Below are positions 5,325 to 31,014 of a DNA stretch of 35,314 bases, piece after piece. The notes under the pieces were generated by a model. The model was not told where the DNA came from. It did not search any database and saw nothing but the letters and a program-made list of their open reading frames with translations. The DNA comes from Chloroflexota bacterium (lineage in GTDB: Bacteria; Chloroflexota; Dehalococcoidia; GIF9; AB-539-J10): positions 1 to 35,314 of the forward strand of contig JAUWQP010000006.1 in the NCBI GenBank assembly GCA_030611015.1, read 5' to 3'. The translations under genes and the position numbers were made by a program. Position 1 is the stretch's first letter, and each line of letters starts with the position of its first letter.

Positions 5325-5389
5325 GGTATACCGGGCACATGATAATTGATTTGTGGCAGGCCTAATTGGTATGGTGCCCCGGCAATTTT
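5325..5389 (+). repeat. 64-bp hairpin repeat, copy 1 (divergent)
   Basis: GGTATACCGGGCACATGATAATTGATTTGTGGCAGGCCTAATTGGTATGGTGCCCCGGCAATTT. Confidence 0.85.
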
Positions 5390-5410
5390 GGCTAATATGG
5401 CCAGGTACAT

Positions 5411-6010
5411 CTAGGTTAGACTGAAGAGAGGATAGCGGTCCGTTGTCAACAAAAAAGCGTAGGCAGTTACTCTCAGCGACCATCGGGATACGCCAACTAC
5501 GAAGTCAAATAGACCTCTGGGATAGCGACCCGTAAACAGGATGGCAAACCAGGCTATCACCACGCAAAAGAATGCTGCAATCCCCAGGAAAAACAGGACG
5601 ATATAGTGCGGGATAGCTAGAAACCACTTCACTAGTGGTAACCAGCGGTTGAGGTCTTTAGGGACGTCGGGATATGGAATCTCAATGTGGACCGACTGCT
5701 CTTCGGCAGTTGACGGGTACACATCTGTAAGCAGACCAATATAGGCGCCAACACGTGTGCTGAACTTAACCAATGCTATATTCCAGTCAAACCACTACCT
5801 GGGGTACTTCTGCCGGAAAAGAATCATGAGTAAGGATGCCAGAAACAAGATGCCTCCTGCAGAGTATTCCCAGGACCAACCACTCGCTCCAACCCATTCA
5901 AAGTTTCCAGTATTTACCAGGGCTAGGATAATAGCAATTGGAATTACTGTGAAGATTCTGAAGGACGTGATTAATCGATTAAGAGCTCTGTCCGGGTAGT
6001 CGATTGTCAA
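5411..6010 (-). pseudogene. DUF4389-type membrane protein split by one in-frame amber codon (TAG, complement 5795-5797)
   Basis: Same-frame ORFs 5795..6010 and 5411..5773; readthrough gives ...LFRQKYPR*WFDWNIALVKFSTRVGAYIGLLTDVYPS... Confidence 0.75.
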
Positions 6011-6172
6011 AGTAGCGGGGTACGCGGGTGGGGTCGGCGGCGCTTTTGATGCTTATAACACTTTTTCTGCCATTGTTATTGATACCTCCCTTTACCTTTT
6101 GTCCTGTAATCCGTTCACCTTCCAGTTTAAGCATACTCTACAATCCGTTGCAAGTAAAAGTCATATGGTAGT

Positions 6173-6237
6173 GGTATTCTGAGCACATAATATCTGACTT
6201 ATAGTCGGTCAATACCGGTATGGTGCCCCGGGAATTC
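6173..6237 (+). repeat. 64-bp hairpin repeat, copy 2
   Basis: GGTATTCTGAGCACATAATATCTGACTTATAGTCGGTCAATACCGGTATGGTGCCCCGGGAATTC; ends 4 nt from the stop of the flanking minus-strand CDS. Confidence 0.85.
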
Positions 6238-6241
6238 GTGG

Positions 6242-6994: not shown

Positions 6995-7028
6995 AGTAGC
7001 AATCACACGAGCAAGCGAAATTCTCCGA

Positions 7029-9425
7029 TTACACGCTGACCATGGTAACACCATCGCCGCCCTCACCCTTTTCGCCGGCTCGGAAAGACGTGACCAGCGG
7101 ATGAGAGGCGAGAACTTCTCTAACAATCTGGCGCACGGTGCCCGTGCCAATACCGTGAATGATGCGGACCTGACTCAAGCCGTAAAGAGATGCTTCATTA
7201 AGGTAGCCATCCAGCGCCAGCTCGACCTCTTCTGCCCTCTTCCCCCGCAGGTCAAGCTCCAGGGGAATACTGGGCTTGCTCAACCTTTTCGTTATCACAG
7301 CACCTCCGGTCTTCACCGCACCGGTTGATGGTATCCTCTTCTCCACGCTGTCCAGATTGAGAGTCATCTTCACTTTCCGGGCACGGACTTCGACGAGTCC
7401 TCGTTCCTCAGAGATTGCAAGTACCGTCGCTGGCATACCAACCTCTTTTAGCCAGACAGTATCACCAACGGTGATAGCGCCTGTCTCCCCTTCCTGTTCA
7501 TCCATCTCTACCGCCGCTCTTGCCTGCCACGCCTCAGTATTCAACTGCTCCTGTACCTCTGTTAGCGCCTTTTTCGCCTGCTCGACTTTTCCCCGAGATT
7601 TTTCCTTGCGCAATTCTGCTGCCGCTTCCCGGAGTTCCCTCTGTAGTCCAGCGGCCTCTCGAACGACCTGGTCGCGGACATCCTTGACGATTTTTTGCCT
7701 CTCTGCTTCTAACTGGCGGAGCCTGTTTCCCAGTTCAGCGTTCTTCTGTTGTGCTTCATTCAATTCCTTCTCCAGGCTATGGCGAAGCGACTCAATACTT
7801 TTCTGCTCGGTTGCCAGATGGACAAGCAAATCCCCGAGCTCCTGACTGCCCTCGGAAAGCATGTATCGGGCACGGGTGACAATCTCGGTGGTCAGTCCCA
7901 GGCGAGATGCTGTAGCCAGGGCATTGCTGCCACCCGGGATGCCCACCGTCAGGTGATAGGTGGGCGCCATCGTAACGGGGTCAACGTTAAGAGCAGCGTT
8001 TTGCATGCCGTCGGTAGTGTGAGCCAGCGCCTTCAATTCAGTGTAGTGAGTAGTGGCCACAACCATCGTTCCCTGTGATAAGAAATGGAGCAGGATAGCC
8101 CGGGCGAGAGCCGAGCCTTCGCCCGGGTCGGTGTTGGTGCCCAATTCATCCAAAAGCACCAGGCTCTTTTCTGTGGCACTGTTGTTGATACGCACAATGT
8201 TACCTATGTGCCAACTAAAAGTAGAAAGGGTTTGCTCGATGCTCTGCTCATCACCGATGTCGGCATATACGCCGTCAAAAAGGGGAATGCGGCTTTCTGC
8301 CAGAGCTGGAATAGGCAGGCCGGCCTGCGCCATCAGGCTGAGAAGTCCTATGGTCTTGAGAGCGACCGTCTTACCACCTGTATTGGGTCCAGTAATGACT
8401 AGAATGGAGAAATCCCGGCCAATCTCTACCGATAGCGGCACCGCTTTACTTCCCAGCAGCGGATGCCTGGCTTCGACCAGCCTGAGCACCCCAACCGGTT
8501 TATTCGCCTTTGCTTCAGGGTTTCTGCCAGCGGCAACCATAAGGGGCTCAGTCGCTTTTGCCTCCCTGGCATATCTTGCCTTAGCCAGCGCCAGGTCAAT
8601 TTCGGCAATCAGCTCAATGTTACGCGAAATTTCGCGTTCGTATGCTCCGACTTCGGAACTGAGCGTTCTCAGGATTCTTTCTACTTCATGCCTCTCATCC
8701 ATAGTCAACTCGCGCAGTTCATTCTGCACGTCTATAGTCGCCAACGGCTCAATAAACACAGTAGCCTCCGTATTGGAGACGTCGTGGACAATGCCCTTTA
8801 TCTGTCGGCGACATTCCTCCCTGACTGGAATTACATACCGACCTCCTCGCTCGGTAATAATGGGGTCCTGGATTATTTTCTGTCTTCTGGGTGACCTGAT
8901 TATGGATTGCAGGTGAGTGAGCAATTCCTGGCGTACCTCTCGCATTCTACGTCTCACCAACGCCAGACTGGAGGAGGCGGTATCCAGCAGGTCGCCCGTC
9001 GGAGTCAAGCAGCCACCGATATCCTTTTGAAGCTGCTCCAATGCCACGATATCCCTGGCCAGACCACTGAGCAACGGGAGTTCGCCCGACAGGTTCATCA
9101 GGTGGCTTTTTAACCGCCGACCAGCACCCAGCGTCCTTTCAATTTCCAACAGAGACGTAGGCTCCAGGACTTTGCCCCGTGCTGCCATCTTCACCACTTC
9201 CTGTATATCAACAACGTCGCCGATATGAAAGTCTGGGCTGAGTGAAAGCAGGTGGCGCGCCTCAGCCGACTCCTTGAGCCGCAGGCAGACCTCTTCCTCA
9301 CCCAAGAGAGGTCTGAGGTCGAGGGCAAGCAGCCGGCTGGCGGAAAACGAAGTAAAGCCGGCCAGTATCCCCCTTATTTTGTGAAATTCCAGCAGTTCTA
9401 AATCTCTGTCGCCCAAGGTAACCAT
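7029..9425 (-). CDS. mutS2: Endonuclease MutS2 with C-terminal Smr domain
   Basis: ITGPNTGGKTVALKTIGLL Walker A, LLDELGTNTDPGEG, C-terminal ELDLRGKRAEEVELALDGYL...VRIIHGIGTGTVR Smr motif. Confidence 0.95.
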   Translation of the reverse strand: MVTLGDRDLELLEFHKIRGILAGFTSFSASRLLALDLRPLLGEEEVCLRLKESAEARHLLSLSPDFHIGDVVDIQEVVKMAARGKVLEPTSLLEIERTLGAGRRLKSHLMNLSGELPLLSGLARDIVALEQLQKDIGGCLTPTGDLLDTASSSLALVRRRMREVRQELLTHLQSIIRSPRRQKIIQDPIITERGGRYVIPVREECRRQIKGIVHDVSNTEATVFIEPLATIDVQNELRELTMDERHEVERILRTLSSEVGAYEREISRNIELIAEIDLALAKARYAREAKATEPLMVAAGRNPEAKANKPVGVLRLVEARHPLLGSKAVPLSVEIGRDFSILVITGPNTGGKTVALKTIGLLSLMAQAGLPIPALAESRIPLFDGVYADIGDEQSIEQTLSTFSWHIGNIVRINNSATEKSLVLLDELGTNTDPGEGSALARAILLHFLSQGTMVVATTHYTELKALAHTTDGMQNAALNVDPVTMAPTYHLTVGIPGGSNALATASRLGLTTEIVTRARYMLSEGSQELGDLLVHLATEQKSIESLRHSLEKELNEAQQKNAELGNRLRQLEAERQKIVKDVRDQVVREAAGLQRELREAAAELRKEKSRGKVEQAKKALTEVQEQLNTEAWQARAAVEMDEQEGETGAITVGDTVWLKEVGMPATVLAISEERGLVEVRARKVKMTLNLDSVEKRIPSTGAVKTGGAVITKRLSKPSIPLELDLRGKRAEEVELALDGYLNEASLYGLSQVRIIHGIGTGTVRQIVREVLASHPLVTSFRAGEKGEGGDGVTMVSV

Positions 9426-9663
9426 CCTGCACCGCTTATACAATCATCGCGATATTAACCTCAAATAGTATAAAGCAATCGCCCCAGTTTTCAAAAACTC
9501 GGCTTCTCCCTGTAACGGCGGATGAATTGGCTTACGTTATTTTCAATAGGGTCCCATCCAGTCGGATTGTAAAAATCCTAGAAAAGCGCCCCGGTCTTGA
9601 GGATCGGATTCCTTCCGACCATAAAACAAACGTAGGCGAAGGATCTTGTACCCTCCCAATTAG

Positions 9664-9727
9664 GGTATCCTGAGAACATAATATCTGATTTGTAGTAGGC
9701 CTGATTGGTATGGTATCCCTGGTATTT
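9664..9727 (+). repeat. 64-bp hairpin repeat, copy 3
   Basis: GGTATCCTGAGAACATAATATCTGATTTGTAGTAGGCCTGATTGGTATGGTATCCCTGGTATTT. Confidence 0.9.
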
Positions 9728-10553: not shown

Positions 10554-10617
10554 GTGCTATTCCGGGGCATAACACCTGATTTGTAGAAGGCTGACTGGTA
10601 CGATGTCTCTGGAATTC
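10554..10617 (+). repeat. 64-bp hairpin repeat, copy 4
   Basis: ...GCTATTCCGGGGCATAACACCTGATTTGTAGAAGGCTGACTGGTACGATGTCTCTGGAATTC. Confidence 0.85.
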
Positions 10618-10646: not shown

Positions 10647-11996
10647 ATGGTTATCAAGAATCGTGACGAGCTCGGTTATACGCCACTTCGACGCTGCGCC
10701 CTCGATATTTGTGAGGCTGGCATCAGGGCGACTTTGCCAGCAGCCGTTTTACCCACCGTGGTCAATTACGACACGAACAGCCAGACTCTTTCAATCACAG
10801 GGCAGGCCCATCACATAAGGGGTCGTGTCTTTGTGGTCGGTGGAGGGAAAGCAAGTGTTGCAATGGCGGAAACCCTGGAAAACCTGCTGCCGGAATCCAG
10901 GATTATGGATGGTGTGGTGATATGCAAGGGCGGTACTTACAGAACCCGGAAAATCAGGATAGTTACCGCCGGTCACCCCATCCCGGATGCCCGTGGTGTG
11001 CACGCGACGGCGGACATACTGGCACTCAAGGACAGGTATCAGGTGGGAACCGGCGATACAGTAGTTTGCCTGCTTTCCGGCGGTGGCTCTGCCCTCCTAC
11101 CTGCTCCGGCCGAAGGAATCAGCCTTGCCGACAAACAACTGTTAACGGAGTTACTACTGGCATCCGGTGCTGAAATAAAGGAAATCAATTTGATACGTAA
11201 ACACCTTTCACAGGTGAAGGGTGGGAAGCTGGGACAGCACTTTGCTCCTGCGCAGGTCATCACTTTGATTATCTCCGATGTTATCGGTAATGACCTTTCA
11301 GCGATTGCCTCCGGGCCGACATACCCCGATCAGACAACATTCGCTGATGCCCTGGTGGTGCTTGAGAAATACCATCTCACAGATAAAATCCCTTCGAATG
11401 TTATTGCACATCTCCGCAGTGGCGCTGCCGGCAAAATGCCCGAGACCCCGAAACGACTCGACAACTGCCATAACTACATTATTGCCGATGGTCGTTTAGC
11501 GCTGGAAGCGATGCGGCAAAAAGCGGGCGAGCTTGGTTTTGCGCCGTGTATTATAACAGCAACGCAAAAGGGAGAAACCGCCACGGTTGCCAGGCAAAGA
11601 GCCAGCGAGATTATTGAAGGTAAATACGGCAGGGATGACGTACTCCTCCTCGGCGGTGAAACGACACCAGTCCTGCCAGAGGAACACGGCACAGGTGGCC
11701 GTAATCAGCACTTCGTTGGAGTGTCAATGTGTGAGTTAAAGGACTTCAAGGGGCAGTGGGTAGTAGCAAGTCTGGGCAGCGATGGCTCCGACTATCTACC
11801 TGATGTAGCAGGCGCAATAGCAGATAGCACATCATGGCAGACCGCTAACGAGTCGAAACTCGATACCGAGTCATATCTGAAGCGGTACGACAGTCACACA
11901 TTACTGAAATCAATTGGCAGATGCCTGGTTATTACCGGAGAGACTGGCACCAACGTCGGTGATGTCGCACTCTATATTCTCAAACGGCAGGCTTAG
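10647..11996 (+). CDS. Glycerate 2-kinase (DUF4147/MOFRL family)
   Basis: VFVVGGGKASVAMAE, LLSGGGSALLPAP, KHLSQVKGGKLG, LLGGETTPVL...GGRNQHF, SDGSDYLPDVAGAI. Confidence 0.9.
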   Translation: MVIKNRDELGYTPLRRCALDICEAGIRATLPAAVLPTVVNYDTNSQTLSITGQAHHIRGRVFVVGGGKASVAMAETLENLLPESRIMDGVVICKGGTYRTRKIRIVTAGHPIPDARGVHATADILALKDRYQVGTGDTVVCLLSGGGSALLPAPAEGISLADKQLLTELLLASGAEIKEINLIRKHLSQVKGGKLGQHFAPAQVITLIISDVIGNDLSAIASGPTYPDQTTFADALVVLEKYHLTDKIPSNVIAHLRSGAAGKMPETPKRLDNCHNYIIADGRLALEAMRQKAGELGFAPCIITATQKGETATVARQRASEIIEGKYGRDDVLLLGGETTPVLPEEHGTGGRNQHFVGVSMCELKDFKGQWVVASLGSDGSDYLPDVAGAIADSTSWQTANESKLDTESYLKRYDSHTLLKSIGRCLVITGETGTNVGDVALYILKRQA

Positions 11997-12014
11997 GATA
12001 TCCTTTATGTGCTC

Positions 12015-12077
12015 AGTATTCGGAGACATAATACCTGATTTGTGGCAGGTCTAATCAGCAGGGCGTCCCCGGAATTC
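12015..12077 (+). repeat. 64-bp hairpin repeat, copy 5
   Basis: AGTATTCGGAGACATAATACCTGATTTGTGGCAGGTCTAATCAGCAGGGCGTCCCCGGAATTC. Confidence 0.85.
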
Positions 12078-12175
12078 TGAAGTCGTTTAGCAATTTGCTG
12101 GCTGGATCACCGGCGTGTTAATCACCACGTTATGGTTTTAACCCCATAGTACCGGTCGGAAATTATGATAGGAAG

Positions 12176-13732
12176 TTAAATCAGCTCTCCATTCAGTAGC
12201 TTCTGTTGTCTGGCTAGCAGCGCATCATCAACCTGGATTTCTCTCACTTTCTCACAGACCTTGCGAAGGTGAAATCCCTGAACAGCCAGGGCTATAGCCA
12301 ACCCAACAAACCGAGGATATTTCAGGAGGGACGAGAAGATCAGCTTCCAATAGTACCATCCGGCTTTATCTCTAATACCTAACATAAATGTGGCTTTAAT
12401 CAATGCTTTTAGTTGTGCAGTCCCCAACTCGCCACTGTAGGCTACCCTTTTATTGGGCCTGAATTCCTTGAGGAACGTATGAATCCGTTCATAGTATTGT
12501 TTAGGCGAGTAGATTGCTTGCAGGATTCGCTTGTAACCGTTAACGAGAGCAGTAAAGTCCATTTCGGGGATGAAATTGGTAGTCCCGTCCGTATTATCAC
12601 CAGTGCCGGCGGCGAAAAGGCGGTTTTCTTTTTTCAGGCGATGCCATAGCTTCGTTCCGGGAGGGGCCACCAACATACCTACCATAGCTGTGACAATGCC
12701 GCTCTGTTGAATAAAGTCAATTTGGCTCTGGAAGATGGAGATTGGGTCACTGTCAAAACCGACAATAAAGCCTCCCATTACCTGAAAACCATGGTTTTGG
12801 AGTTTCCTAACCGAAGCCACCAGGTCGCGATTCTTATTAGCGAACTTTTTGCATTCGTTTAGACTTTCTTCATTCGGGCTTTCAATACCAACAAACACAT
12901 TGTTGAATCCGGCATCAGACATGAGTTGCATTAGTTCTTCGTCATCAGCTAGGTCTATCGAGGCTTCGGTGACAAAGTTAAACGGATACTGCCGCTCTTT
13001 CATCCACTGGATTACGGCCGGCAGGACATCTTCTTTGAGCTTCCTCCTGTTACCGATGAAATTGTCATCAACAATAAACACCCGACTTCTATAGCCCAAA
13101 TCGTAGATTGCCTCTAGCTCGGCGAGGATTTGGTCACTGGTTTTGGTCCGGGGTTTATGTCCATCCAGTACAGTGATGCCGCAAAACTCACAGTCAAAAG
13201 GGCAGCCCCGTGAATATTGGACCGTGACCATCGAGTATTTTCCCAGATCAAGAAGCGGAAATAAGGGGGCAGGGGTTTCAGTTACATCTGCCTTCCGGTC
13301 AGTCTGGTAAATATGCTTGGCGCATCCCTTCTTCAAGTCCTCCAAGAAAAGAGGCAGGGTAATTTCCGCTTCGTTTAGAATAATATGATCTACATCCTCG
13401 AACCCCAACTCTTTATATGCCATCGTGAACAGCGGACCGCCGCCAACCACTCTCCTGTCAAGTTTCTTACATCGGTCGACAACTTCACGCGTTGACCTCT
13501 GCTGGACAATCATGGCACTAACAAAAACGTAGTCAGCCCATCCAATGTCTTTGTCGTTCAATCTAGTTGTATTCATGTCCACAGCTTTCTTTTCCCAATC
13601 GGTTGGTAGCATGGCGGCAACAGTCAGTATTCCTAAAGGGGTATTCAATGCCTTCTTTTGGATGAATTTCAAAGCATGTTTAAAGCTCCAGAAAGTATCT
13701 GGATACTGTGGATAAACTAAAAGTATTTTCAA
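12176..13732 (-). CDS. B12-binding-domain radical SAM protein with DUF4070-like C-terminus
   Basis: YSRGCPFDCEFC (CxxxCxxC), N-terminal cobalamin-binding-like LLVYPQYPDTFWSF; likely TTG start at 13732 preceded by AAAGGAGG. Confidence 0.85.
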   Translation of the reverse strand: MKILLVYPQYPDTFWSFKHALKFIQKKALNTPLGILTVAAMLPTDWEKKAVDMNTTRLNDKDIGWADYVFVSAMIVQQRSTREVVDRCKKLDRRVVGGGPLFTMAYKELGFEDVDHIILNEAEITLPLFLEDLKKGCAKHIYQTDRKADVTETPAPLFPLLDLGKYSMVTVQYSRGCPFDCEFCGITVLDGHKPRTKTSDQILAELEAIYDLGYRSRVFIVDDNFIGNRRKLKEDVLPAVIQWMKERQYPFNFVTEASIDLADDEELMQLMSDAGFNNVFVGIESPNEESLNECKKFANKNRDLVASVRKLQNHGFQVMGGFIVGFDSDPISIFQSQIDFIQQSGIVTAMVGMLVAPPGTKLWHRLKKENRLFAAGTGDNTDGTTNFIPEMDFTALVNGYKRILQAIYSPKQYYERIHTFLKEFRPNKRVAYSGELGTAQLKALIKATFMLGIRDKAGWYYWKLIFSSLLKYPRFVGLAIALAVQGFHLRKVCEKVREIQVDDALLARQQKLLNGELI

Positions 13733-13894
13733 TTTAATTCCTCCTTTCAAAAACACTTAAAGTCGGCCTAACTCCACATCACTGTGTGACCAGGTTAAGC
13801 TCAAAACTATGCGTATAAGGGTGCTCATTGGTCCAGTCTGGGAGATATATAGGCTGGAATTTCCCGCTTCTATATCTCCTCAACTTCGAACTAG

Positions 13895-14194
13895 CTATCT
13901 ACCAGTTCTGACATTGCTGTAGCATTCGCTACAATACACTGGCCTACCTTGTCGGGGCTCAAATGGCACTTCGCTATCTTTGCCACATTGGGCGCATGTT
14001 GCCGGAAACATTTGGCGGCCGGTACTGCGGCTGTAGCTACGATTTCCGTATCGCTCTGACTTCCTGGCTTCACGGCACGAGGGACAGCGTTTGGGATCGT
14101 TTGTATAGTCCTTAGATTGGAAAAACTCCTGCTCCTCAGCACTGAAAGCGAAGATAGCCCCACAATCGGAACATTGGATCGACTTGTCCTGAAA
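13895..14194 (-). CDS. Zinc-ribbon protein (two CxxC-x-CxxC ribbons), start codon unclear; not in the supplied ORF track
   Basis: Manual translation: FQDKSIQCSDCGAIFAFSAEEQEFFQSKDYTNDPKRCPSCREARKSERYGNRSYSRSTGRQMFPATCAQCGKDSEVPFEPRQGRPVYCSECYSNVRTGR*. Confidence 0.75.
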   Translation of the reverse strand, partial: FQDKSIQCSDCGAIFAFSAEEQEFFQSKDYTNDPKRCPSCREARKSERYGNRSYSRSTGRQMFPATCAQCGKDSEVPFEPRQGRPVYCSECYSNVRTGR

Positions 14195-14468
14195 ACTACT
14201 TGGATGACCTCCTTTCTTCTATTAGTTGGTAGGAGTTCCGGCCATCCAATACCCGAAGAAATCTAGAGGACCTACATTGCAGTAAGTTTGCGGTAATTCC
14301 CGGTAGTACGTAATAACCTAAACTAGAACCGATAATATGCTAATATTATAGAGTACCTTTTGTCAAGTTTGTATGCTGGCTGGCTTTCTCATTCCGGTAA
14401 CTCCTCACGGTAGGTGATTACCACTAAACACACCACGAGTGTTACCCATGTATCTCAGCCTCCGCACC

Positions 14469-14546
14469 GGATAATCTGGGGAAATAATACCTGATTTGTA
14501 GTAAGCCTGGTCCTTCACAAGGTGAAGGATGGTGTCCCTGGAATTT
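14469..14546 (+). repeat. 64-bp hairpin repeat, copy 6, with nested hairpin insertion CCTTCAC-AAG-GTGAAGG
   Basis: GGATAATCTGGGGAAATAATACCTGATTTGTAGTAAGCCTGGTCCTTCACAAGGTGAAGGATGGTGTCCCTGGAATTT. Confidence 0.85.
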
Positions 14547-14620
14547 CCGGATGTCATTTCAAAGGGGTACAATGATATTGGCGATTGCCCTTGAAGTCTA
14601 TTCGAGGAGGAGCAGGAAAG

Positions 14621-15349
14621 ATGAAAAACGCGAACAAGCACATAGTCGTATGCCTTGGTGCTAGTAGGGTGCGTGGACAGGTCAGCTACAATTTCGTGAA
14701 CCTTCTAGATCAACGCATGGCCGAGGACGGCTTCCAATTCATTAATGCAGGCGTCGCAGGCGACCAGGCCTACAATGTATTGATGCGTTTGGATTCCGTT
14801 ATTGATTACCAGCCTGATTTCGTCATCATCCTGGTTGGCACGAATGATGTTACCGCTATACTCGGTTCAACGCTGGTGCGCATTTCTCGCTTAACCAGGA
14901 GGTTTCCTCAACCACCATCGGCAGAATTCTATAAATATAATATGCTCAGGATTATCAATACGCTTAAAGAGAGAACTTCAGCGAAGATTGCCCTGGTCTC
15001 GCTCCCAGTTCTTGGAGAAGACCTGGAATCAATGCCCAATCATCTCATCAAGGACTACAATGCTATGCTCAAGGATATTGCAGACGAAGAGCAAGTCAGC
15101 TATCTAGCTGTTTATGAACTCCAGGAGGAGTATTTGAGGGAGGTCCAGCACGACAGCGGCCGGCCGTATGAGAGCGGAGGTATGCTTTCAATTAAGGCAC
15201 TTGCCCGTCATTATTTGCTCAGACAGAGCTTTGACGAAATTTCCAGGAAGCACCACTTCGTACTGTTAACTGACGGGATACATATGAATAGTCGCGGCGC
15301 AACCTTCATTGCCGATGAGATTGAGGCTTTTCTGCGCTCCCATATATGA
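14621..15349 (+). CDS. SGNH/GDSL-type hydrolase
   Basis: VVCLGASRVRG (block I), NAGVAGDQAYN, VIILVGTNDVTAIL (block III), DGIHMNSRGATFIADEI (block V); start at 14621 after AGGAGGAGCAGGAAAG. Confidence 0.85.
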   Translation: MKNANKHIVVCLGASRVRGQVSYNFVNLLDQRMAEDGFQFINAGVAGDQAYNVLMRLDSVIDYQPDFVIILVGTNDVTAILGSTLVRISRLTRRFPQPPSAEFYKYNMLRIINTLKERTSAKIALVSLPVLGEDLESMPNHLIKDYNAMLKDIADEEQVSYLAVYELQEEYLREVQHDSGRPYESGGMLSIKALARHYLLRQSFDEISRKHHFVLLTDGIHMNSRGATFIADEIEAFLRSHI

Positions 15350-15368
15350 TGGTTATATGCATGTGCAC

Positions 15369-15432
15369 GGTATTATGGGGAAATAATGCCTGATTTGTGG
15401 CAGGCTTGATTGGTGTGGTGTCTCTGGAATTC
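15369..15432 (+). repeat. 64-bp hairpin repeat, copy 7
   Basis: GGTATTATGGGGAAATAATGCCTGATTTGTGGCAGGCTTGATTGGTGTGGTGTCTCTGGAATTC; 9 nt upstream of the next start codon. Confidence 0.9.
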
Positions 15433-15441
15433 TAAAGACGG

Positions 15442-19375: not shown

Positions 19376-19861
19376 ATGCCAGAGTTAGGTTTAGGCGTCC
19401 CTTTCTGGGTAATTGTTTTGATATGGTTAGCTAAAGTTGTGTTGCTGGTTTTCGTCTCTGCTCTTCTGGCGTGGCTTGGAGTCAGAGCACTAGATGCTCT
19501 TATCCCTCATGTCCCTTATCGCGAACGAATAGGCGAGAGCCCGGTGGCTACGAGCTTGTTCATGGCCGGCTTCTTCATCCTGATTGGTCTTGTTATCCAC
19601 GGCGCTCTTACCGCACTCACTGCGGTCACAGCTCCAATAGTGTGGTACATCTTCGATTTCAGGACGTGGGGGTTGCTAGCTATGAGCTTTGCGATAAGCT
19701 TACTTCTTGGGGTAGCCCTATTCTATATTGTGGACAAGCTAACGCCTAAAATACCGTTTGGCAGTATTAAGGAAAACCCGGTGGCTGCAGGGATACATAT
19801 CTTTGGATATCTCGTCTTCTTTGGCTTAATACTCCATGCGGCACTGACCGGACCGTTATGA
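19376..19861 (+). CDS. DUF350-like integral membrane protein with internal duplication
   Basis: Two halves: IGESPVATSLFMAGFFILIGLVIHGALT and IKENPVAAGIHIFGYLVFFGLILHAALT; AAGGAGG upstream of the ATG. Confidence 0.7.
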   Translation: MPELGLGVPFWVIVLIWLAKVVLLVFVSALLAWLGVRALDALIPHVPYRERIGESPVATSLFMAGFFILIGLVIHGALTALTAVTAPIVWYIFDFRTWGLLAMSFAISLLLGVALFYIVDKLTPKIPFGSIKENPVAAGIHIFGYLVFFGLILHAALTGPL

Positions 19862-20685: not shown

Positions 20686-20697
20686 GCCAAACCCCCT

Positions 20698-20757
20698 AAT
20701 CTGGAACGTAATACCTGATTTGTAGTAGGCCTGGCCGGTATCGTGTCACTGGAATTC
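20698..20757 (+). repeat. 64-bp hairpin repeat, copy 11
   Basis: AATCTGGAACGTAATACCTGATTTGTAGTAGGCCTGGCCGGTATCGTGTCACTGGAATTC. Confidence 0.85.
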
Positions 20758-20772
20758 GCGCCCTACAGGCGT

Positions 20773-20811
20773 GTCATTGCGAGCCCCGACTTGTCGGGGC
20801 GTGGCAATCTC
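20773..20811 (+). repeat. GTCATTGCGAG...GGCAATCT-type hairpin repeat
   Basis: GTCATTGCGAGCCCCGACTTGTCGGGGCGTGGCAATCT; perfect CCCCGAC-TT-GTCGGGG core. Confidence 0.75.
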
Positions 20812-20915
20812 TGGAGAACTGTAAAGGCTTGCTAATTATATACAACCGGTGCTATTATTAAACAAAACAGGCATTTTGTTTAATAAGGAGAAAACTTACT
20901 AAACTGGCGTTTAAT

Positions 20916-22100
20916 ATGGATACTGCTCTGTTTAGAAATAGCCTTTCCGGCAGGTTGGTACGTGCTATAGACGGGTACTGGGCTTTTGTGCCCAACCCGC
21001 TGCCTCCGAAGCTTGACTGGAGTGATGCTCTGGTATCACTGACATCCAAGGCTGACCTGGCTCTGGGGACACTCTCCGGTCTTGGTGAGAATTTGCCTAA
21101 CCCCCATCTGCTTATCTACCCCTTTGTCAGAAAGGAAGCTGTTCTTTCTTCTCGCATTGAGGGCACACAGTCATCACTTTCTGACCTGCTGTTGTTTGAA
21201 GCCACCAAGGCTGAGAAACAGAGAGATGTAAGGGAAGTGCAAAACTATGTCCATGCCATAGAGTACGGGCTGAAACGCTTGAAGGAACTGCCTTTAAGCC
21301 TGAGGCTCATCCGTGAATTACATGCTATTCTTATGGAAGGAGTGCGTGGTGAACGGGCTACCCCCGGTGAGTTCAGGCAATCCCAGAACTGGATTGGTCC
21401 CCCAGGGTGTACCTTAAATGACGCTACTTTTGTGCCTCCATCCGTGGCAAAAATGAAGGAAGCCCTTGACCAATTGGAAAAATTCCTGCATGCCGATACA
21501 CAGTTACCACCACTGGTCGAACTGGCTCTAATCCATTACCAGTTTGAGACTATTCATCCTTTCCTCGATGGTAACGGGCGTATCGGGCGGCTTCTCATTA
21601 CTCTTTTCCTCTGCCAGCGCAGCATTCTCAATAAGCCTTTGCTCTATCTCAGCGCCTTTTTTGAGCGCCATCGCCAGGAATACTATGACCGTCTTCTGGA
21701 AGTCAGTCAGCGAGGTGCGTGGCGGCAGTGGCTGGAGTTCTTCTTGCAGGCAGTAGTTAAGCAATCGGACGATGCCGTCCGGCGAGCTCGCCGTCTCTTA
21801 GACCTTCACCGCACTTATTATCAAACCAGCCTGGGAAAACGTCTACCGCCCACGGCAGTGGAGCTTGTGGAACTCATCTTCGTGAAGCCAGTATTAAATA
21901 CTAGGGTTGTGCAGGAGTATCTTAAAGTGACATTTCCCGCTGCCCAGAAAGCCATTAAGGCTCTCATGGAAGAAGGTATTCTAGCCGAGATTACCGGTGG
22001 CAAACGGAACAAAGCCTACGCGGCGAAAAAAATCCTCGAGATCCTAGAAGAAGAGACCCCATCCCCGACGGAGGGAGGCCGTGGCAGTAAAAAGCAATGA
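20916..22100 (+). CDS. Fic family protein (probable AMPylase) with N-terminal Fic_N inhibitory helix
   Basis: IHPFLDGNGRIGRLLI (HPFx[D/E]GNGRxxR); SSRIEG matches the inhibitory (S/T)xxxE(G/N) motif; C-terminal winged-helix-like region. Confidence 0.93.
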   Translation: MDTALFRNSLSGRLVRAIDGYWAFVPNPLPPKLDWSDALVSLTSKADLALGTLSGLGENLPNPHLLIYPFVRKEAVLSSRIEGTQSSLSDLLLFEATKAEKQRDVREVQNYVHAIEYGLKRLKELPLSLRLIRELHAILMEGVRGERATPGEFRQSQNWIGPPGCTLNDATFVPPSVAKMKEALDQLEKFLHADTQLPPLVELALIHYQFETIHPFLDGNGRIGRLLITLFLCQRSILNKPLLYLSAFFERHRQEYYDRLLEVSQRGAWRQWLEFFLQAVVKQSDDAVRRARRLLDLHRTYYQTSLGKRLPPTAVELVELIFVKPVLNTRVVQEYLKVTFPAAQKAIKALMEEGILAEITGGKRNKAYAAKKILEILEEETPSPTEGGRGSKKQ

Positions 22101-22227
22101 CAATCGGCGGATTACCTCGCTGCAGAGCCTGAATATCTACGTCAAAGGAATCTGTTGCTGCGTATTCGCCATCCCTCCGCCTTCTCTCCGCTTCAAGCCC
22201 CTAAAGTGCTTTCAATTCCACTATGGT

Positions 22228-22290
22228 GTATTCTGGGGGCATAATACCTGATTTGTAGTAGGCCTGATTGGTATGGTGTCCCTGGAGTTC
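22228..22290 (+). repeat. 64-bp hairpin repeat, copy 12
   Basis: GTATTCTGGGGGCATAATACCTGATTTGTAGTAGGCCTGATTGGTATGGTGTCCCTGGAGTTC; abuts the hicB stop codon exactly. Confidence 0.92.
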
Positions 22291-22722
22291 TTACACCTTT
22301 GCCAGAGTGTTTTTTCTCGCCTTTCTCAAGTGAGTGGGCTCTTTGGTTATACCAACTGACGTTGCCAGTGCCGTAGCCATATATTGATTCAGGCTCATTC
22401 CTTCCGTTTCAGCTCTATATGTAAGTAGTTTATGAAGTGAAGGCGAAATTCTGAGTCTGATTTGACCACTATATTTGCGCGATCTCGGCTCAGGAATACG
22501 AAGTCCTCTTTCCAGATTGGACTTTATCCAATCCATTTTGACTTCCTGAATCTCTTTTATGACTTCCTCAGGTGTATCTGCGTGTATTAGACAATGTGGA
22601 AGCTCTGCAATCCTGGCAACCCAATAAGGGCCCTCACCGTCATCCCATTGCTCAACTATAACGGTGTAAGGCAACTTCGCATAGTGTTCTAACTCTTTCT
22701 CTATATTGCCTTTAATTACCAT
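22291..22722 (-). CDS. HicB-family antitoxin
   Basis: YTVIVEQWDDGEGPYWVARIAELPHCLIHADTPEEVIKEI plus RHH-like RLRISPSLHKLLTYRAETEGMSLNQYMATAL. Confidence 0.85.
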   Translation of the reverse strand: MVIKGNIEKELEHYAKLPYTVIVEQWDDGEGPYWVARIAELPHCLIHADTPEEVIKEIQEVKMDWIKSNLERGLRIPEPRSRKYSGQIRLRISPSLHKLLTYRAETEGMSLNQYMATALATSVGITKEPTHLRKARKNTLAKV

Positions 22723-22757
22723 CTTTAATCTCCATCTTAATCGTAATCTCTAGCCAG

Positions 22758-22982
22758 TTATGCTTCTTGCTCTTCAATAATCTCTAATAACTCTTTTACG
22801 TAGCAGGATTTAACTGTACTTTCTCTTTTGTAAGGCATCGTGCGCGTTCCTATGATAGCCTTTGGATGCTTTGCGCCTTCCTCGATATATCCGTACCGTT
22901 TTATTAGTGCTTCAAAGTCGCGCAAAGCCACATTTCTAGGATTCCGTTGAATTGCCTCCAGAGATTTTTTGTCGCGAGTCAT
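22758..22982 (-). CDS. HicA-like toxin (mRNA interferase)
   Basis: Small protein immediately upstream of hicB with a conserved-His region YIEEGAKHPKAIIGTRTMPYKRESTVKSCYVKELLEIIEEQ. Confidence 0.7.
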   Translation of the reverse strand: MTRDKKSLEAIQRNPRNVALRDFEALIKRYGYIEEGAKHPKAIIGTRTMPYKRESTVKSCYVKELLEIIEEQEA

Positions 22983-23109: not shown

Positions 23110-23173
23110 GGTATTCTGGGGACATAATACCTGATTTGTAGTAGGCCTGATTGGTATGGTGTCCCTGGAATTC
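23110..23173 (+). repeat. 64-bp hairpin repeat, copy 13 (consensus-like)
   Basis: GGTATTCTGGGGACATAATACCTGATTTGTAGTAGGCCTGATTGGTATGGTGTCCCTGGAATTC. Confidence 0.95.
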
Positions 23174-23319: not shown

Positions 23320-23469
23320 TTACTTGGTTTTCGATTTACCTCCAAAACCAACAGAGTACTTCGTTACTCGAAGAGTACGTTTCCACTCAGGCCACTTCTC
23401 TACTTTTGTGCGAGCTTCACTTGTAATCTTCCAAAAATCCCTATTAGCGGCGCCATTATTCTTAGTCAT
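23320..23469 (-). CDS. 49-aa basic small protein translationally coupled to the deaminase (below the ORF-track cutoff)
   Basis: MTKNNGAANRDFWKITSEARTKVEKWPEWKRTLRVTKYSVGFGGKSKTK*; ATG overlaps the last 8 nt of the upstream CDS. Confidence 0.7.
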   Translation of the reverse strand: MTKNNGAANRDFWKITSEARTKVEKWPEWKRTLRVTKYSVGFGGKSKTK

Positions 23470-24919
23470 TTTCATCCTTCCCTCCTAATAATTTATCTAT
23501 TTCCGCTGCAAGGTAAGTTTCCCTTTCCATGTAACTTAATGGAGTCATTGGTACTCTTACACTTGCGTTCTCACGCTCCCATTCGGCTTTATTACCGTTC
23601 TCTTTTCTCTTAATAGTTCTTCCACCACTAAGCATCATAGAAAAAAGATCTAAAAAATGTCTTGGGCCTACACCTACAAATGGTTCAAATTTTACTTTAT
23701 CGTTAGCCTCATTAACATCGTCTTCATTAGCAAGGAAAATTGAATCAGAATGCAGTTCTGATGCTAGGCTTCTGGGATAAGGTTCTACAAACACTACTCT
23801 TGAGATACCTGAAGCGACAATGTGTTTTGCACAATTATGACAAGGAAATGTAGTGGAATAGAGAGTTCCCCCTCTTGGGGATACACCTGACCTAGCGCAC
23901 GATATTATTGCCTCCATTTCAGCGTGCACAGCTCGCCCATATTCAGTAATATCAAATACCCCTGTATTTCTGAGTAAAGTTTTTCCTTCTTTTAATAGCT
24001 CTTCTTCACCTTTGTCATCAAATTTTTTCATAATTTTAACTATAATTTCATCTTTCCGTTTCTCGTTTGCATCGCATCCTAGCTTGTAATCACGCTTGTC
24101 TTTATCTTGGTGGTCTGCCCAATATAAACCACCACCTGAACAAGGTACGTCATTTGCTCCGGTTGATATAATTTCGTTATATGATGAAGTCACTACCGCC
24201 CCAACTTGTCGCGAAAGGTCACCGGAACGTAAAGAAGCCGCATATGCAATAAACATCGCGTATTCGTCTTTAGTTGGAGTTAACCAGGGTTTTCCAAAGA
24301 TTAAGTCTAAAATTCGGGCTAGCTGACCCTCATAATCCTCTGCATCAATATTAACAAAAGCATCGGATAAATGAAACGCCTCGCGCATATGTTGCCCAAA
24401 TTCAAACTCTTCAGATTCATCACGGGCTATTAAATTCTCCGCCTCCTCTGGTCGTATACCCTTTTGGTCAGTGAGATATTTCAATCTACGGGACCTTGAT
24501 GAAGCAATCCCTATAAGATAGAATCCATCGCCATAAACATTACGCAATGTCTGTACTTCATCTGGATGTTTTATAGAGTCAAAAATATGTGCTACCTTCT
24601 TGGGAGGTTTATCATTGATATGCTTTTCGTAAACACTGCAAATACCAAGTGCTGCAACGAAGTCACCTCTTCCTGCTTTTTGTCTAGCCTCATTGCCAGC
24701 AGTCATTAATGAATCTATTCTTTTGTATTCTGTACTCTCGTCGATCGGAGTTTGCAGGCCTTCTATCTTCTTAATTAAAGAACTCAAACGAATATGATTA
24801 GATTTGTAATGAAACTGTCTAAGATAGTCTTTTAATACAGTTTGGACACTAGAAAGGTCTACTCCAACAGGAGCAACCAAACCAATCACAAACTCAGGAT
24901 GTTCACTAAGATTGCTCAC
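23462..24919 (-). CDS. Anti-phage dCTP/dCMP deaminase (AvcD/DCD-like): N-terminal P-loop-like domain plus C-terminal cytidine-deaminase domain
   Basis: N-term VIGLVAPVGVDLSSVQ; C-term AVHAEMEAIISCARSG (HAE) and TTFPCHNCAKHI (PCxxC). Confidence 0.85.
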   Translation of the reverse strand: MSNLSEHPEFVIGLVAPVGVDLSSVQTVLKDYLRQFHYKSNHIRLSSLIKKIEGLQTPIDESTEYKRIDSLMTAGNEARQKAGRGDFVAALGICSVYEKHINDKPPKKVAHIFDSIKHPDEVQTLRNVYGDGFYLIGIASSRSRRLKYLTDQKGIRPEEAENLIARDESEEFEFGQHMREAFHLSDAFVNIDAEDYEGQLARILDLIFGKPWLTPTKDEYAMFIAYAASLRSGDLSRQVGAVVTSSYNEIISTGANDVPCSGGGLYWADHQDKDKRDYKLGCDANEKRKDEIIVKIMKKFDDKGEEELLKEGKTLLRNTGVFDITEYGRAVHAEMEAIISCARSGVSPRGGTLYSTTFPCHNCAKHIVASGISRVVFVEPYPRSLASELHSDSIFLANEDDVNEANDKVKFEPFVGVGPRHFLDLFSMMLSGGRTIKRKENGNKAEWERENASVRVPMTPLSYMERETYLAAEIDKLLGGKDEND

Positions 24920-25110: not shown

Positions 25111-25173
25111 AGTATTCTGAGAACATGATACTAATTTGTAGCAGGCCTGATTGGTATGGTGTCCCTGGAATTT
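25111..25173 (+). repeat. 64-bp hairpin repeat, copy 14
   Basis: AGTATTCTGAGAACATGATACTAATTTGTAGCAGGCCTGATTGGTATGGTGTCCCTGGAATTT. Confidence 0.9.
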
Positions 25174-26323: not shown

Positions 26324-26388
26324 GGTATTCTGGGGACATAATACCTGATTTGTAGTAGGCCTAATTGGTATGGTGTTCCCTGGAATTC
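26324..26388 (+). repeat. 64-bp hairpin repeat, copy 15
   Basis: GGTATTCTGGGGACATAATACCTGATTTGTAGTAGGCCTAATTGGTATGGTGTTCCCTGGAATTC. Confidence 0.95.
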
Positions 26389-26680: not shown

Positions 26681-26702
26681 TAAGTCAAAATGGAGAATTA
26701 TT

Positions 26703-28310
26703 ATGGCTATTTTAAGTTTTAAGGGGAAGTCCTTTATCCAAAATTACCACCTAGCCGTTAAATACCACGAGCTTATTCCCAAGAAGACGAGGAGCCTGAC
26801 AAAAAAGGTTAGCCTGAAGGACAACCTGATTATTCATGGCGATAATCTGAAGGCTCTTAAAGCCTTACTACCTACCTATGCTGGAAAGATAAAGTGTATC
26901 TACATAGACCCGCCTTACAATACCGGCAACGAAGACTGGGTATACAACGATAACGTAAACTCTCCTATGATGCAGGAATGGCTGGGCAATGTGGTTGATA
27001 AAGAAGACTTGACCAGACACGACAAATGGCTTTGCATGATGATGCCTCGTTTGAAGTTGTTGAGAGAGCTATTAAGTCCTGAGGGAAGTATTTTCTGCTC
27101 CATAGATGACTATGAGGTTCATAGCCTGAGGAGTTTGTTAGATGAGATATTTGGAGAAGACAATTTCATAGGACAATTGGTTTGGAGGAAAAGACCCAAC
27201 CCCCCAAACGATTCAAAGTTCATTGGGCGTATACATGAATATGTGCTCTGTTATCGGAGGTCTGATACGTTGAACAACTTTTTCAAGCTGGATAGGCTTG
27301 ATTTCTCGGCGTACTCAAATCCGGATGATGACATAAAAGGCGATTGGAAACCAACTCCTCTTATTCTAACAGACACGCAGGCGCGACCAAATTTAGTATA
27401 CGAAGTAATTAGCCCAAGCGGGAAAACTTTTAAATGTGAATCGGGTTGGAGAATCGAGGAAGCACTTTTCAATGAACTAAACAAGAACGAGCAAATATAT
27501 TGGGGGATTAACGGAAGTTCAACGCCAGTTCGAAAAAGGTACCTGTCGGAAGATCAAGGCATCCTACTGAATTCAATCGTGTTGGAATACGGCAGCACAA
27601 TAACGGCTCGCAAAGAAATTAAGGAAATCTTCGGCAAATTGGTTTTTGACACACCTAAACCCACTAAACTGATTAAAGCCTTAATTAGATTGTCCACGGA
27701 CAACAATTCTTTGGTCTTAGATTCATTTGCCGGATCTGGGACCACCGCACATGCTGTGTTAGACCTGAACAAAGAAGAGAATGGTAATCGTAGATTTGTT
27801 CTTGTAGAGTGCCTTGACTATGCGGATAACATAACCGCCGAGCGTGTCTGCAGAGTAATCAAGGGTGTGCCTGACGCTAAAGATGAGAAATTAAAGAGTG
27901 GTTTAGGTGGTTCGTTTAGCTTCTTTGAACTTGGCGAGCCTATAGAACTTGAGAGCATCTTGAAAGGTAGTAAATTACCCAACTATATGGATTTAGCCCG
28001 CTACGTTTTTTATACCGCTACTGGAGAAGAGTTTTTACCAGAGCAAGTGGATGAAAACAAGCACTTCATTGGTGAATCCAAAGAATATGAAGTATATCTA
28101 TTCTATAAACCAGACCTTGACTACTTAAAATCTACCGCTTTGACGCTGGACATTGCTAAGGGACTAGGCGAGTACACTGGAAAGAAGAAACTGGTTTTCG
28201 CTCCTACCAAGTATCTTGACCTTAATGATAGTGAGCTTCTTACCAAGCACGGCTTAAAAGGCATCGAATACTGCCAGTTACCTTTCGAGATTTATAAACT
28301 CAGAGAGTAA
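26703..28310 (+). CDS. Type III restriction-modification DNA adenine methyltransferase (Mod)
   Basis: CIYIDPPYNTGNEDW (motif IV) before DSFAGSGTTAHAVL (motif I), beta-class order; variable central TRD. Confidence 0.92.
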   Translation: MAILSFKGKSFIQNYHLAVKYHELIPKKTRSLTKKVSLKDNLIIHGDNLKALKALLPTYAGKIKCIYIDPPYNTGNEDWVYNDNVNSPMMQEWLGNVVDKEDLTRHDKWLCMMMPRLKLLRELLSPEGSIFCSIDDYEVHSLRSLLDEIFGEDNFIGQLVWRKRPNPPNDSKFIGRIHEYVLCYRRSDTLNNFFKLDRLDFSAYSNPDDDIKGDWKPTPLILTDTQARPNLVYEVISPSGKTFKCESGWRIEEALFNELNKNEQIYWGINGSSTPVRKRYLSEDQGILLNSIVLEYGSTITARKEIKEIFGKLVFDTPKPTKLIKALIRLSTDNNSLVLDSFAGSGTTAHAVLDLNKEENGNRRFVLVECLDYADNITAERVCRVIKGVPDAKDEKLKSGLGGSFSFFELGEPIELESILKGSKLPNYMDLARYVFYTATGEEFLPEQVDENKHFIGESKEYEVYLFYKPDLDYLKSTALTLDIAKGLGEYTGKKKLVFAPTKYLDLNDSELLTKHGLKGIEYCQLPFEIYKLRE

Positions 28311-28312
28311 TT

Positions 28313-30850
28313 ATGGAACTCAAAGGATACCAGCAGAAGACGCTGACTCAAGTTAAGGTCTACCTGGAATGGCTTACCAAAGCTAAAGAGGAAGCTACTA
28401 GAAGGCAACCACTGCCTTCTGAGTTTGCCGATATTGAATCTTTCGACTTCCCTAAAGCTGCTTGGGGTAAGTATTGGGGTAGTACTCCAAAACCTTATCA
28501 CTCAAAACAGAATGGCTTGGGGGAAGGACTGCCCGATTTTTATATCAAGATTCCAACCGGTGGGGGTAAGACATTACTGGCTTGCCACATTATTGACCTA
28601 ATTAACCGCATCTACCTCAAGAAGCAGACCGGCATAGTCCTATGGATTGTGCCCACAACTCAAATCTACAGGCAGACGCTAGAAGCTCTCAGGAATAGAG
28701 ACCATCCATACCGGCAAGTACTGGACATGGCAAGTGCTGGACGAACTATCATATCTGAGAAGATGCGGAGGTTTTCAAAGCTTGATGTTGAAGAAAACCT
28801 GGTTGTCATGCTTTTGATGCTGCCATCAGCCAATCGAAGAATCAAAGAGGTTTTGCGGATATTCCACGACAACGGCGGTTTTACCGATTTCTTTCCCCCC
28901 GAAGATGATTTGAAAGGAAACGAAGAACTACTAGGGAAGTTCCCTAATCTGGATTGCTTTGGCGAAGACGGAGGATTCTTCGGCAAGGTTGCTATGACTT
29001 CACTTGGGAATACGCTCAAGACACTCAAACCCATCATCATTATAGACGAGGGACATAAAGCATACAGTCCAGGGGCACGAAAGACCATCAGGGACTTCAA
29101 TCCACCAATCGTAGTTGAGTTATCGGCTACACCGCCTGAACAAAGCAATATCTTGGTCGAAATAAGCGGACAGGAACTCAACCGCGAAGAGATGATTAAA
29201 CTCGATTTGCACGTATTCAACAAGTCCAGCCTGAAATGGCAAGACGTTTTGAGAGAGGCTGTAAAAAGACGAGACGACCTTGAAAGCAAGGCGCTTGAAT
29301 ATGAAGCTAATACCGGAATCTATATTAGACCGATATGCCTGATACAAGCCGAGCGGACTGGCAAAGAACAGAGAGGTACTAGATATATCCACGCCGAAGA
29401 TGTGAAAGATTACCTGATAAAACAAAGTGGCATGGCTCCGGAGCAGGTAGCGATAAAGAGTAGCGAAACGGATGATATTGAGGGCATAGATTTGCTTAGC
29501 CGTAGCTGTCCGATTCGCTTCGTTATCACTAAGCAAGCTTTACAGGAAGGCTGGGATTGTCCTTTCGCCTATATCCTGACCGTGCTTACTAACCCGAACT
29601 CGCAATTGAGCATGACTCAGTTGGTGGGTCGTATTTTACGACAACCTTATGCGAAGAAAACAAAAACAATCGAACTGGATGAAAGCTACGTATTCTGCTT
29701 CAAACCACGGGCGTCTGACCTTCTTGAAAGCATTAGGAGAGGGTTTGAGAATGAGGGACTTGGTGATATAGCCGGTAGAGTAACGATAGATAAAGATGAC
29801 ACGGGATTACCAGAGACCAGCTTGAAAACGGTGGGTTATAGAGACCGGTTTAAGCATTTTGAAGGCAAACTATATTTACCGAAGTTCGTTATCCAGGAGA
29901 ACGATAGCTGGCGTGACATTAATTATGAGACTGATTTGTTACGAAGAATAGACTGGAATCTTGTTGACCTGGACTATGTATTCAATCTGGCTCTGGATAA
30001 GAAACCGCCTGTGGATAGGGAAGTTGTGTTAGAGCTTTCTGATGATAAAAAAGAGGTTATAAGGGAAAAGAAGCGAGCATTTGAAACACTGACAGCTTGG
30101 CAAATAGATACTGTGTTTATGACCAGACAATTGCTCGACATAGTTCCAAATCCTTGGACAGCTTATGAAATCTGTGGCAAGACCGTAAAAGCTTTGACAA
30201 AGAGATACGGCGCAACGATTGTCAGTTATAACCTTGCGTTCTTGATTGAGGAACTGAGGAAGCACTTAGAGAACGAACGGGATAGATTAGCCGAAATCGT
30301 TTTCCGTGACCTGATTGCCAAGAAAATACTTTGGTTCTTTTTGATTGCAGACAAAGGTGGTTATAGGCTACCAAGCCGGCTACGCATTAAAAGAGATACC
30401 AAGCGACTCGTTAGAACAGATAACTCTCAGTTAGAAAGAAGCATATTTGAAGAAGTACCTGATGAGGGGATAAACGAAGTAGAAAAGTCAGTAGCTATCT
30501 GCCTTGATGAGCAACAAAAGCTTCTATGGTGGTATCGCAATCTAGCTCGGCAAGATTACTTTATTCAAGGCTGGAAGAAAAACAAGGTTTATCCTGATTT
30601 CATATTCGCCGATATGTCGCCTAGTAATGTTAATGATTATGATTCCATATATGTTATCGAGACTAAGGGGTTACACTTGAAGGGTAGCGAAGATACCGCA
30701 TACAAAACAAGCATCTTCGACTTCTGTAATAGCTTAGGTAAGCAAAGAGATTGGCGTGAACTTAACTTAGAATTCAAGGATAAAAGGATTGCATTCCATG
30801 TTATCTATGAAGACGAATGGAGAAATAGAATTAACCAGATGCTAGGCTAG
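28313..30850 (+). CDS. Type III restriction enzyme Res subunit (SF2 helicase plus PD-(D/E)xK nuclease)
   Basis: IPTGGGKTLLACHII, IIIDEGHK, VELSATPP, QLVGRILRQPY, C-term VYPDFIFADMS...YVIETKGLHL. Confidence 0.92.
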   Translation: MELKGYQQKTLTQVKVYLEWLTKAKEEATRRQPLPSEFADIESFDFPKAAWGKYWGSTPKPYHSKQNGLGEGLPDFYIKIPTGGGKTLLACHIIDLINRIYLKKQTGIVLWIVPTTQIYRQTLEALRNRDHPYRQVLDMASAGRTIISEKMRRFSKLDVEENLVVMLLMLPSANRRIKEVLRIFHDNGGFTDFFPPEDDLKGNEELLGKFPNLDCFGEDGGFFGKVAMTSLGNTLKTLKPIIIIDEGHKAYSPGARKTIRDFNPPIVVELSATPPEQSNILVEISGQELNREEMIKLDLHVFNKSSLKWQDVLREAVKRRDDLESKALEYEANTGIYIRPICLIQAERTGKEQRGTRYIHAEDVKDYLIKQSGMAPEQVAIKSSETDDIEGIDLLSRSCPIRFVITKQALQEGWDCPFAYILTVLTNPNSQLSMTQLVGRILRQPYAKKTKTIELDESYVFCFKPRASDLLESIRRGFENEGLGDIAGRVTIDKDDTGLPETSLKTVGYRDRFKHFEGKLYLPKFVIQENDSWRDINYETDLLRRIDWNLVDLDYVFNLALDKKPPVDREVVLELSDDKKEVIREKKRAFETLTAWQIDTVFMTRQLLDIVPNPWTAYEICGKTVKALTKRYGATIVSYNLAFLIEELRKHLENERDRLAEIVFRDLIAKKILWFFLIADKGGYRLPSRLRIKRDTKRLVRTDNSQLERSIFEEVPDEGINEVEKSVAICLDEQQKLLWWYRNLARQDYFIQGWKKNKVYPDFIFADMSPSNVNDYDSIYVIETKGLHLKGSEDTAYKTSIFDFCNSLGKQRDWRELNLEFKDKRIAFHVIYEDEWRNRINQMLG

Positions 30851-30863
30851 TAGTGAGTTAGAT

Positions 30864-30968
30864 ATGACCAAAGCAGTAATTCTAGCTCGTGTCTCAACGG
30901 TCAAGCAGGAAAAGGAAGGGTTATCCCTGAAAGAAATCCAGTTCACTCTTGGTATTCTAGGGAAATAA
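30864..30968 (+). pseudogene. Truncated serine site-specific recombinase (N-terminal catalytic stub), cut at hairpin repeat copy 16
   Basis: MTKAVILARVSTVKQEKEGLSLKEIQ then FTLGILGK*; ARVST catalytic-Ser motif; homology-like sequence stops about 10 nt before the repeat. Confidence 0.75.
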
Positions 30969-31014
30969 TACCTAATTTGTAGCAGGCCTAATTGATATGG
31001 TGTCCCTGGAATTC
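30951..31014 (+). repeat. 64-bp hairpin repeat, copy 16
   Basis: GGTATTCTAGGGAAATAATACCTAATTTGTAGCAGGCCTAATTGATATGGTGTCCCTGGAATTC. Confidence 0.92.

Follow-up and report, generated by a model that had tools for sequence, protein, structure and literature searches.

The 35,314-nt window analysed here (contig JAUWQP010000006.1 of assembly GCA_030611015.1, a Chloroflexota bacterium of the class Dehalococcoidia) is contig C88 of a 1.79-Mb metagenome-assembled genome (MAG) and contains a series of small gene units separated by a short hairpin repeat. Sixteen copies of this 64-bp imperfect palindrome lie between positions 5325 and 31014, with every gap that separates transcription units between ogt (end 5006) and hamA (start 31197) holding a single copy. 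A pattern search, a repeat search and a local-alignment scan placed all copies on the + strand and found none on the − strand of the window. These positions and their common strand had been described in an earlier note on this DNA and are confirmed, but its count of 16 full copies is slightly too high, as copy 9 is a half copy. Copy 1 (5325–5388) marks the boundary after ogt and is followed by copies 2 (6173–6237), 3 (9664–9727), 4 (10556–10617), 5 (12015–12077), 6 (14470–14546), 7 (15369–15432), 8 (17173–17236), 9 (17807–17845, consensus positions 25–63 only), 10 (19118–19181), 11 (20695–20757), 12 (22227–22290), 13 (23110–23173), 14 (25111–25173), 15 (26324–26388) and 16 (30951–31014), the last forming the boundary before hamA. 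The first 22 nt of the repeat, with at most three mismatches, matched the window nine times and gave no match in 100 shuffles. In the whole MAG, BLAST (E ≤ 0.01) returned 23 matches and a covariance model, as proposed in the earlier note, 26. Sixteen of the 23 BLAST matches sit on this 35-kb contig, and several of the other copies are on small contigs or close to contig ends.

The consensus, to which copy 13 is identical, folds as single-stranded DNA into an 18-bp stem with one A–G mismatch and a 21-nt loop. The stem is symmetric, with neither a bulge nor extrahelical bases, and the calculated folding energy is −9.5 kcal/mol (z −3.7) for the top strand versus −7.8 kcal/mol for the bottom strand. 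The degenerate copies that were tested gave no comparable fold. The element is sharply bounded: in 109 aligned copies the information content is at background beyond positions 1–64 and the flanks are random. Copies are about 80% identical on average and appear to have drifted from one conserved master sequence. Their arms are constant while the tips vary. A tip hairpin of the form CCTTCAC-(AAG, CTT or similar)-GTGAAGG occurs in about 10 copies across several species, including the long-loop variant copy 6, where the 17-nt version CCTTCAC-AAG-GTGAAGG is found at 14512–14528. Other tips carry a duplicated 16-nt block or a shortened interior of 11 nt, and the points where truncated copies break off show no clustering at any one site. 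The window yielded neither an Rfam family nor a tRNA; an RNA element was rejected as an explanation of the repeat on the basis of the missing Rfam match and of flanking genes that run in both directions. Repeat copies 1 and 11 adjoin a further dispersed sequence of intergenic DNA (5190–5310 and 20767–20812), which reads GTCATTGCGAG...GGCAATCTC or similar; in other genomes it recurs after argG.

The conserved flank of the array comprises argJ, an argB-type AA_kinase gene and an argD-type aminotransferase gene (3–4163, + strand, Pfam assignments), and in several species the array adjoins it. Several outgroup genera have argJ, AA_kinase, argD, argG, argH (Pfam Lyase_1/ASL_C2) and rpe without an array, and in other outgroups argG is followed by unrelated genes and no repeats. 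In the genus of the window, the repeat and cassettes come after argG, and argH-rpe lie past the far end of an array. Because the contigs break within, the argG side and the argH side can only be presumed to be the two ends of one array. The first repeat starts 1 bp past the argG stop codon in genomes G012, G003 and G019 and no more than about 90 bp past it in most of the remaining genomes, the exception being G010, which has only a weak copy further from argG. In the window argG is absent after argD (4163–4296) and ogt stands there instead, directly before the first repeat; the gene order in G005 likewise has ogt in the place of argG. Several other array sites are fixed as well, for example one that five genomes share beside the gene for a D-Tyr-tRNA deacylase.

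Whether the repeats delimit mobile units was judged from 165 inter-repeat units of 12 genomes. These have a median length of about 1.3 kb and mostly hold one or two genes; some repeat pairs are gene-free and only 32–53 bp apart. Cassettes shared between genomes keep their direction relative to the repeat (203 pairs the same, nine reversed), and for nearly all of them the sequence beyond both flanking repeats is unrelated. For the Fic and HicAB cassettes, homology was followed base by base: it sets in where the left repeat ends and is lost at the right repeat. Of 653 testable adjacencies only 50 (7.7%) are conserved. For some shared cassettes the identity exceeds that of core genes by a wide margin, with 96.6% versus 82.1% for G000 and G009, 95.5% versus 81.3% for G008 and G017, and 95.6% versus 79.1% for G008 and G009, of which the simplest reading is that single cassettes were transferred between species. 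The interpretation as a cassette array, put forward in the earlier note, is supported by cassettes that appear in new contexts with their orientation kept and homology ending at the repeats, by the array-free outgroup locus, and by cassette identity above core identity. Comparison of orthologous loci for gain or loss of gene-plus-repeat units, which that note had recommended, showed that units differ between species and that the junctions lie at the repeats.

The window illustrates this behaviour for several cassettes. A mutS2 cassette (7029–9443, − strand) carries a core-type gene, which the earlier note had counted against a classical integron. It is no evidence against cassettes, since seven genomes have mutS2 between repeats and its neighbours there differ. 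A two-gene cassette encoding DUF350 and transglutaminase-core proteins (19376–20685, + strand) is common to at least six genomes and occurs in new contexts. The Fic cassette (20916–22100, + strand) is 93–95% identical at the nucleotide level in two other species with unrelated flanks, and the HicB-type toxin–antitoxin cassette (22291–22982, − strand) shares 96.6% nucleotide identity with its counterpart in G009, where core genes share 82.1%. A deaminase cassette (23462–24919, − strand) matches Pfam dCMP_cyt_deam_1 and the PADLOC dCTPase model. It is accompanied by a type III restriction-modification cassette (26703–30850, + strand), and the Hachiman genes hamA and hamB (31197–34759, + strand) follow the last repeat. 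The window payload counts SoFic among its defence genes; its other products include a DUF2971 (PDC-S31) protein, DUF4389, a radical SAM (S-adenosylmethionine) protein, a GDSL lipase, an amidohydrolase, a flavodoxin and a PLP (pyridoxal phosphate) enzyme. Shedu, PD-Lambda-2, HEC-05 and PDC-S06 are found in cassettes outside the window.

Where within the repeat the exchange takes place was addressed by comparing repeats that flank shared cassettes with the remaining repeats in these genomes (n = 17–69, pairs non-independent). Linkage to the cassette is clear for positions 1–5 in the right copy and for position 64 in the left one. Linkage is weaker for positions 17–20 of the right copy and 49–52 of the left copy, and near background for the remaining positions. 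This pattern places the exchange inside the repeat. Orientation is equally regular: in 51 loci with at least two copies, 255 copies have the orientation of the locus majority and one is opposite. With respect to the repeat, 148 open reading frames have the − and 96 the + direction, which suggests that most genes must carry their own promoters. An apparent inverted duplication in contig L182 (G015:C20, 47,406 bp), in which repeats at 11836–16272 on the + strand mirror those at 31135–35571 on the − strand, is probably an assembly artefact.

All 20 genomes of the genus carry the repeat, with 1–43 clustered copies each. Elsewhere in the family it was found in genera g21 (12 copies), g2 (five), g5 (one or two), g24 (one) and g25 (nine diverged copies), and a search of the other nine genera gave no copies. 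In score, the copies of g21 and g2 come close to the window consensus; the argD-type aminotransferases of these two genera are only 74–83% identical to those of the genus. The nine diverged copies of g25, in genome G063, have a best E of 1.8e-5 and hint at a variant family of the repeat outside the genus of the window. Among 84,980 species genomes the core pattern occurs in 36 stretches, all from Dehalococcoidia/Chloroflexi records except for two small contigs, and the repeat-bearing named MAGs of Dehalococcoidia/Chloroflexi include RBG_13_51_36. The two exceptional contigs, L067 and L072, carry near-consensus repeats and are filed under Stahlbacteria and Fermentibacteria. L072 is probably mis-binned, because it shares a cassette protein with G005 (86%). 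L067 carries Shedu together with a PD-Lambda-2 protein and matches nothing else among the compared sequences. Viral contigs gave no exact match to the core pattern.

A search for an enzyme that could act on the array returned no integron integrase: in a six-frame search of the 20 genus genomes, which are incomplete MAGs, none exceeded the 265-bit cut-off of the IntI model TIGR02249 (best 93), and the best single protein scanned against it reached 121 bits. Tyrosine recombinases are present in every genus genome searched, and those tested are Xer-like. Recombinase A, a XerA/XerD-like protein, scored best in the genus against the integron-integrase model and was rejected as candidate since it also occurs in genera without repeats. 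The intI-like search suggested in the earlier note gave no enzyme that could be tied to the arrays. In L196:8208-10670 (G012:C11), near hflX, the gene for A adjoins genes for a 193-aa protein without Pfam match, Q16, and a diverged recombinase B. Q16 and B are variably present, some genomes hold another Xer-like gene at the locus of A, and the A-Q16-B trio is also found in the repeat-free G046. The only tyrosine recombinase beside a repeat is a 388-aa integrase in G012. It is encoded with a tRNA-Leu-like sequence at L158:11180-12555 (G012:C8), at the start of a stretch of about 50 kb between two array repeats. This integrase looks like that of an ordinary tRNA-targeting element, because it follows the tRNA-Leu-like sequence and opens the 50-kb stretch, and was rejected as well. 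Serine recombinases with a Resolvase domain were detected in 10 of the 20 genomes, not in the copy-rich G012 and G006, and never near a repeat. These enzymes and those of the Y1/HUH type (see below) were rejected as the array enzyme in view of their patchy occurrence and distance from the repeats.

Comparison of the genomes, at the level of sequence, shows units to be gained, lost, reordered and passed between species singly, without inversion and with junctions at the repeat. That the locus is a cassette array with exchange at the repeat is accordingly well supported, and we hold this with high confidence. The action of a dedicated recombinase on the array is likely but unproven. The reading we favour joins the two, namely a chromosomal gene-cassette array in which the hairpin is the exchange site of a trans-acting site-specific recombinase, and we give it a probability of about 0.62. 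The unit would consist of one or few genes between two repeat copies of the same direction. It would be excised as a circle and then inserted at another repeat copy by a recombinase supplied in trans; the likeliest type is a tyrosine recombinase from the Xer/Int superfamily, and it may act on a folded single strand. Several observations weigh against such an enzyme. No tyrosine recombinase was found inside an array and no recombinase could be tied to the arrays; as these are split across MAG contigs, an enzyme encoded in the gaps may have escaped notice. Eight of the 20 genus genomes and 41 of 84 in the order encode the Xer-like protein A, repeat-free genera included. The stem lacks compensatory covariation, with two pairs changed on both sides versus 5.6 expected by shuffling. 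In the linkage test no single crossover point is visible and the interior of the repeat reassorts, whereas a recombinase acting at a fixed point should mark its site more sharply.

The main rival explanation is that the repeats are passive: with no dedicated enzyme, the units would be excised, inserted and converted by homologous recombination between direct repeats of 64 bp. This would preserve direct orientation and account for a repeat interior unlinked to either cassette, since crossovers or conversions could occur at any point within it, and it agrees with the lack of an associated recombinase. However, copies of about 80% identity are poor substrates, long homologous cassettes should dominate the exchange whereas few adjacencies are conserved, and the origin of a bounded 64-bp site on new genes is left unexplained. 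We consider homologous recombination alone unlikely. Still less probable is an action of the host's Xer proteins on a core within the repeat that resembles dif, as in the dif modules of Acinetobacter, although tyrosine recombinases, Xer-like where tested, are at hand in each of the genus genomes searched. To the eye, no more than a single half-site (CATAA) is dif-like; the tested Xer protein is also present in genera without repeats, and 64-bp hairpins of one direction are unlike 28-bp dif sites in inverted pairs. The modules themselves do offer a precedent, being single- or few-gene units, bounded by XerC/XerD sites in inverted pairs and shared between replicons (PMC6449649).

Two further explanations start from the repeat rather than from the genes. 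The repeat could be a non-autonomous element resembling repetitive extragenic palindromes (REP) or miniature inverted-repeat transposable elements (MITE), moved by a Y1/HUH enzyme (TnpA-REP) and inserted between pre-existing genes. It is indeed a small, imperfectly palindromic sequence that ends sharply in random flanking DNA, and its 64-bp size is one that we take to suit such elements. Yet Y1_Tnp is present in only five of the 20 genomes, is missing from a 99%-complete one and was not detected near any repeat. The copies are few and clustered, their orientation is uniform within each array, and the genes between them, which vary by species, do not occur at the arg locus of outgroups. This alternative of the earlier note is disfavoured and seems very improbable. 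Its other alternative, a chromosome motif oriented by the replication strand, would account for the single orientation per array and is the least probable of all, a chance of the order of a few percent at most. The direction of the repeat is unrelated to GC (guanine–cytosine) skew, which is positive for 23 of 50 loci with a mean of −0.002; local skew mostly tracks gene strand and is thus a weak proxy for the replication strand. Low copy number, clustering and a patchy distribution beyond the genus also disagree with such a motif. The observations that the earlier note had named as contrary to cassettes, copies in both orientations and repeats gained within unchanged synteny, were not encountered.

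The favoured reading, a cassette array served by a recombinase in trans, resembles known systems to different degrees. The array works like sedentary chromosomal integrons and CALIN (clusters of attC sites lacking integron integrases; PMC9024848) and the integrons of archaea (PMC9668308). Like these, it has oriented imperfect palindromes of attC size between small gene units, a site similarity specific to the clade, and a variable site tip that resembles attC terminal structures. Its cassettes are shuffled without inversion and moved between species, with a mixed accessory payload rich in defence genes. A classical integron had been doubted in the earlier note, rightly so in view of the missing attC core boxes and IntI. 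An attC site is recognised by AAC and GTT core triplets in its R″ and R′ boxes (PMC2727003). Neither RYYYAAC in the first 14 nt nor GTTRRRY in the last 14 nt was found in any of 134 copies, and even as loose triplets AAC occurs in one and GTT in three; no IntI was found in the 20 genomes. The symmetric stem has a mismatch rather than the extrahelical bases that set strand choice in attC, genes run in both directions relative to the site whereas integron genes are mostly one-way, and there are several array sites per genome. In integrons nearly the whole attC stays with the upstream gene, whereas here clear linkage to the cassette is confined to the left copy's last base and the 5′ end of the right one.

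Acinetobacter dif modules are likewise single- or few-gene mobile units that are shared between replicons and bring no enzyme of their own. A dif site measures 28 bp. The modules lie between short inverted pdif sites and are mostly found on plasmids, in contrast to the long chromosomal arrays of one-way 64-bp hairpins described here. REP, REPIN (paired REP) and MITE elements share the short intergenic palindrome and the many copies. They differ from the present repeat, whose copies bound mobile gene units, are uniform within an array, are clustered and lack a consistent Y1 transposase. A literature search of partial coverage found no earlier description of such arrays; Dehalococcoidia and integrons appear together in a defensome survey.

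In view of the above, we tentatively propose, at odds somewhat short of even, that this is a second, IntI-independent cassette system, with a non-IntI recombinase, its own hairpin site of separate origin from attC and a defence-gene pool shared among Dehalococcoidia. Integrons are the textbook route by which bacteria collect and swap single genes as cassettes. A cassette array without attC boxes or IntI would suggest that the cassette principle arose more than once. Alternatively, integrons may have unrecognised relatives that would be missed by current searches for attC and IntI. With their defence payload, the arrays form a natural reservoir of defence genes, held as single cassettes, in a family of bacteria that has been little studied.

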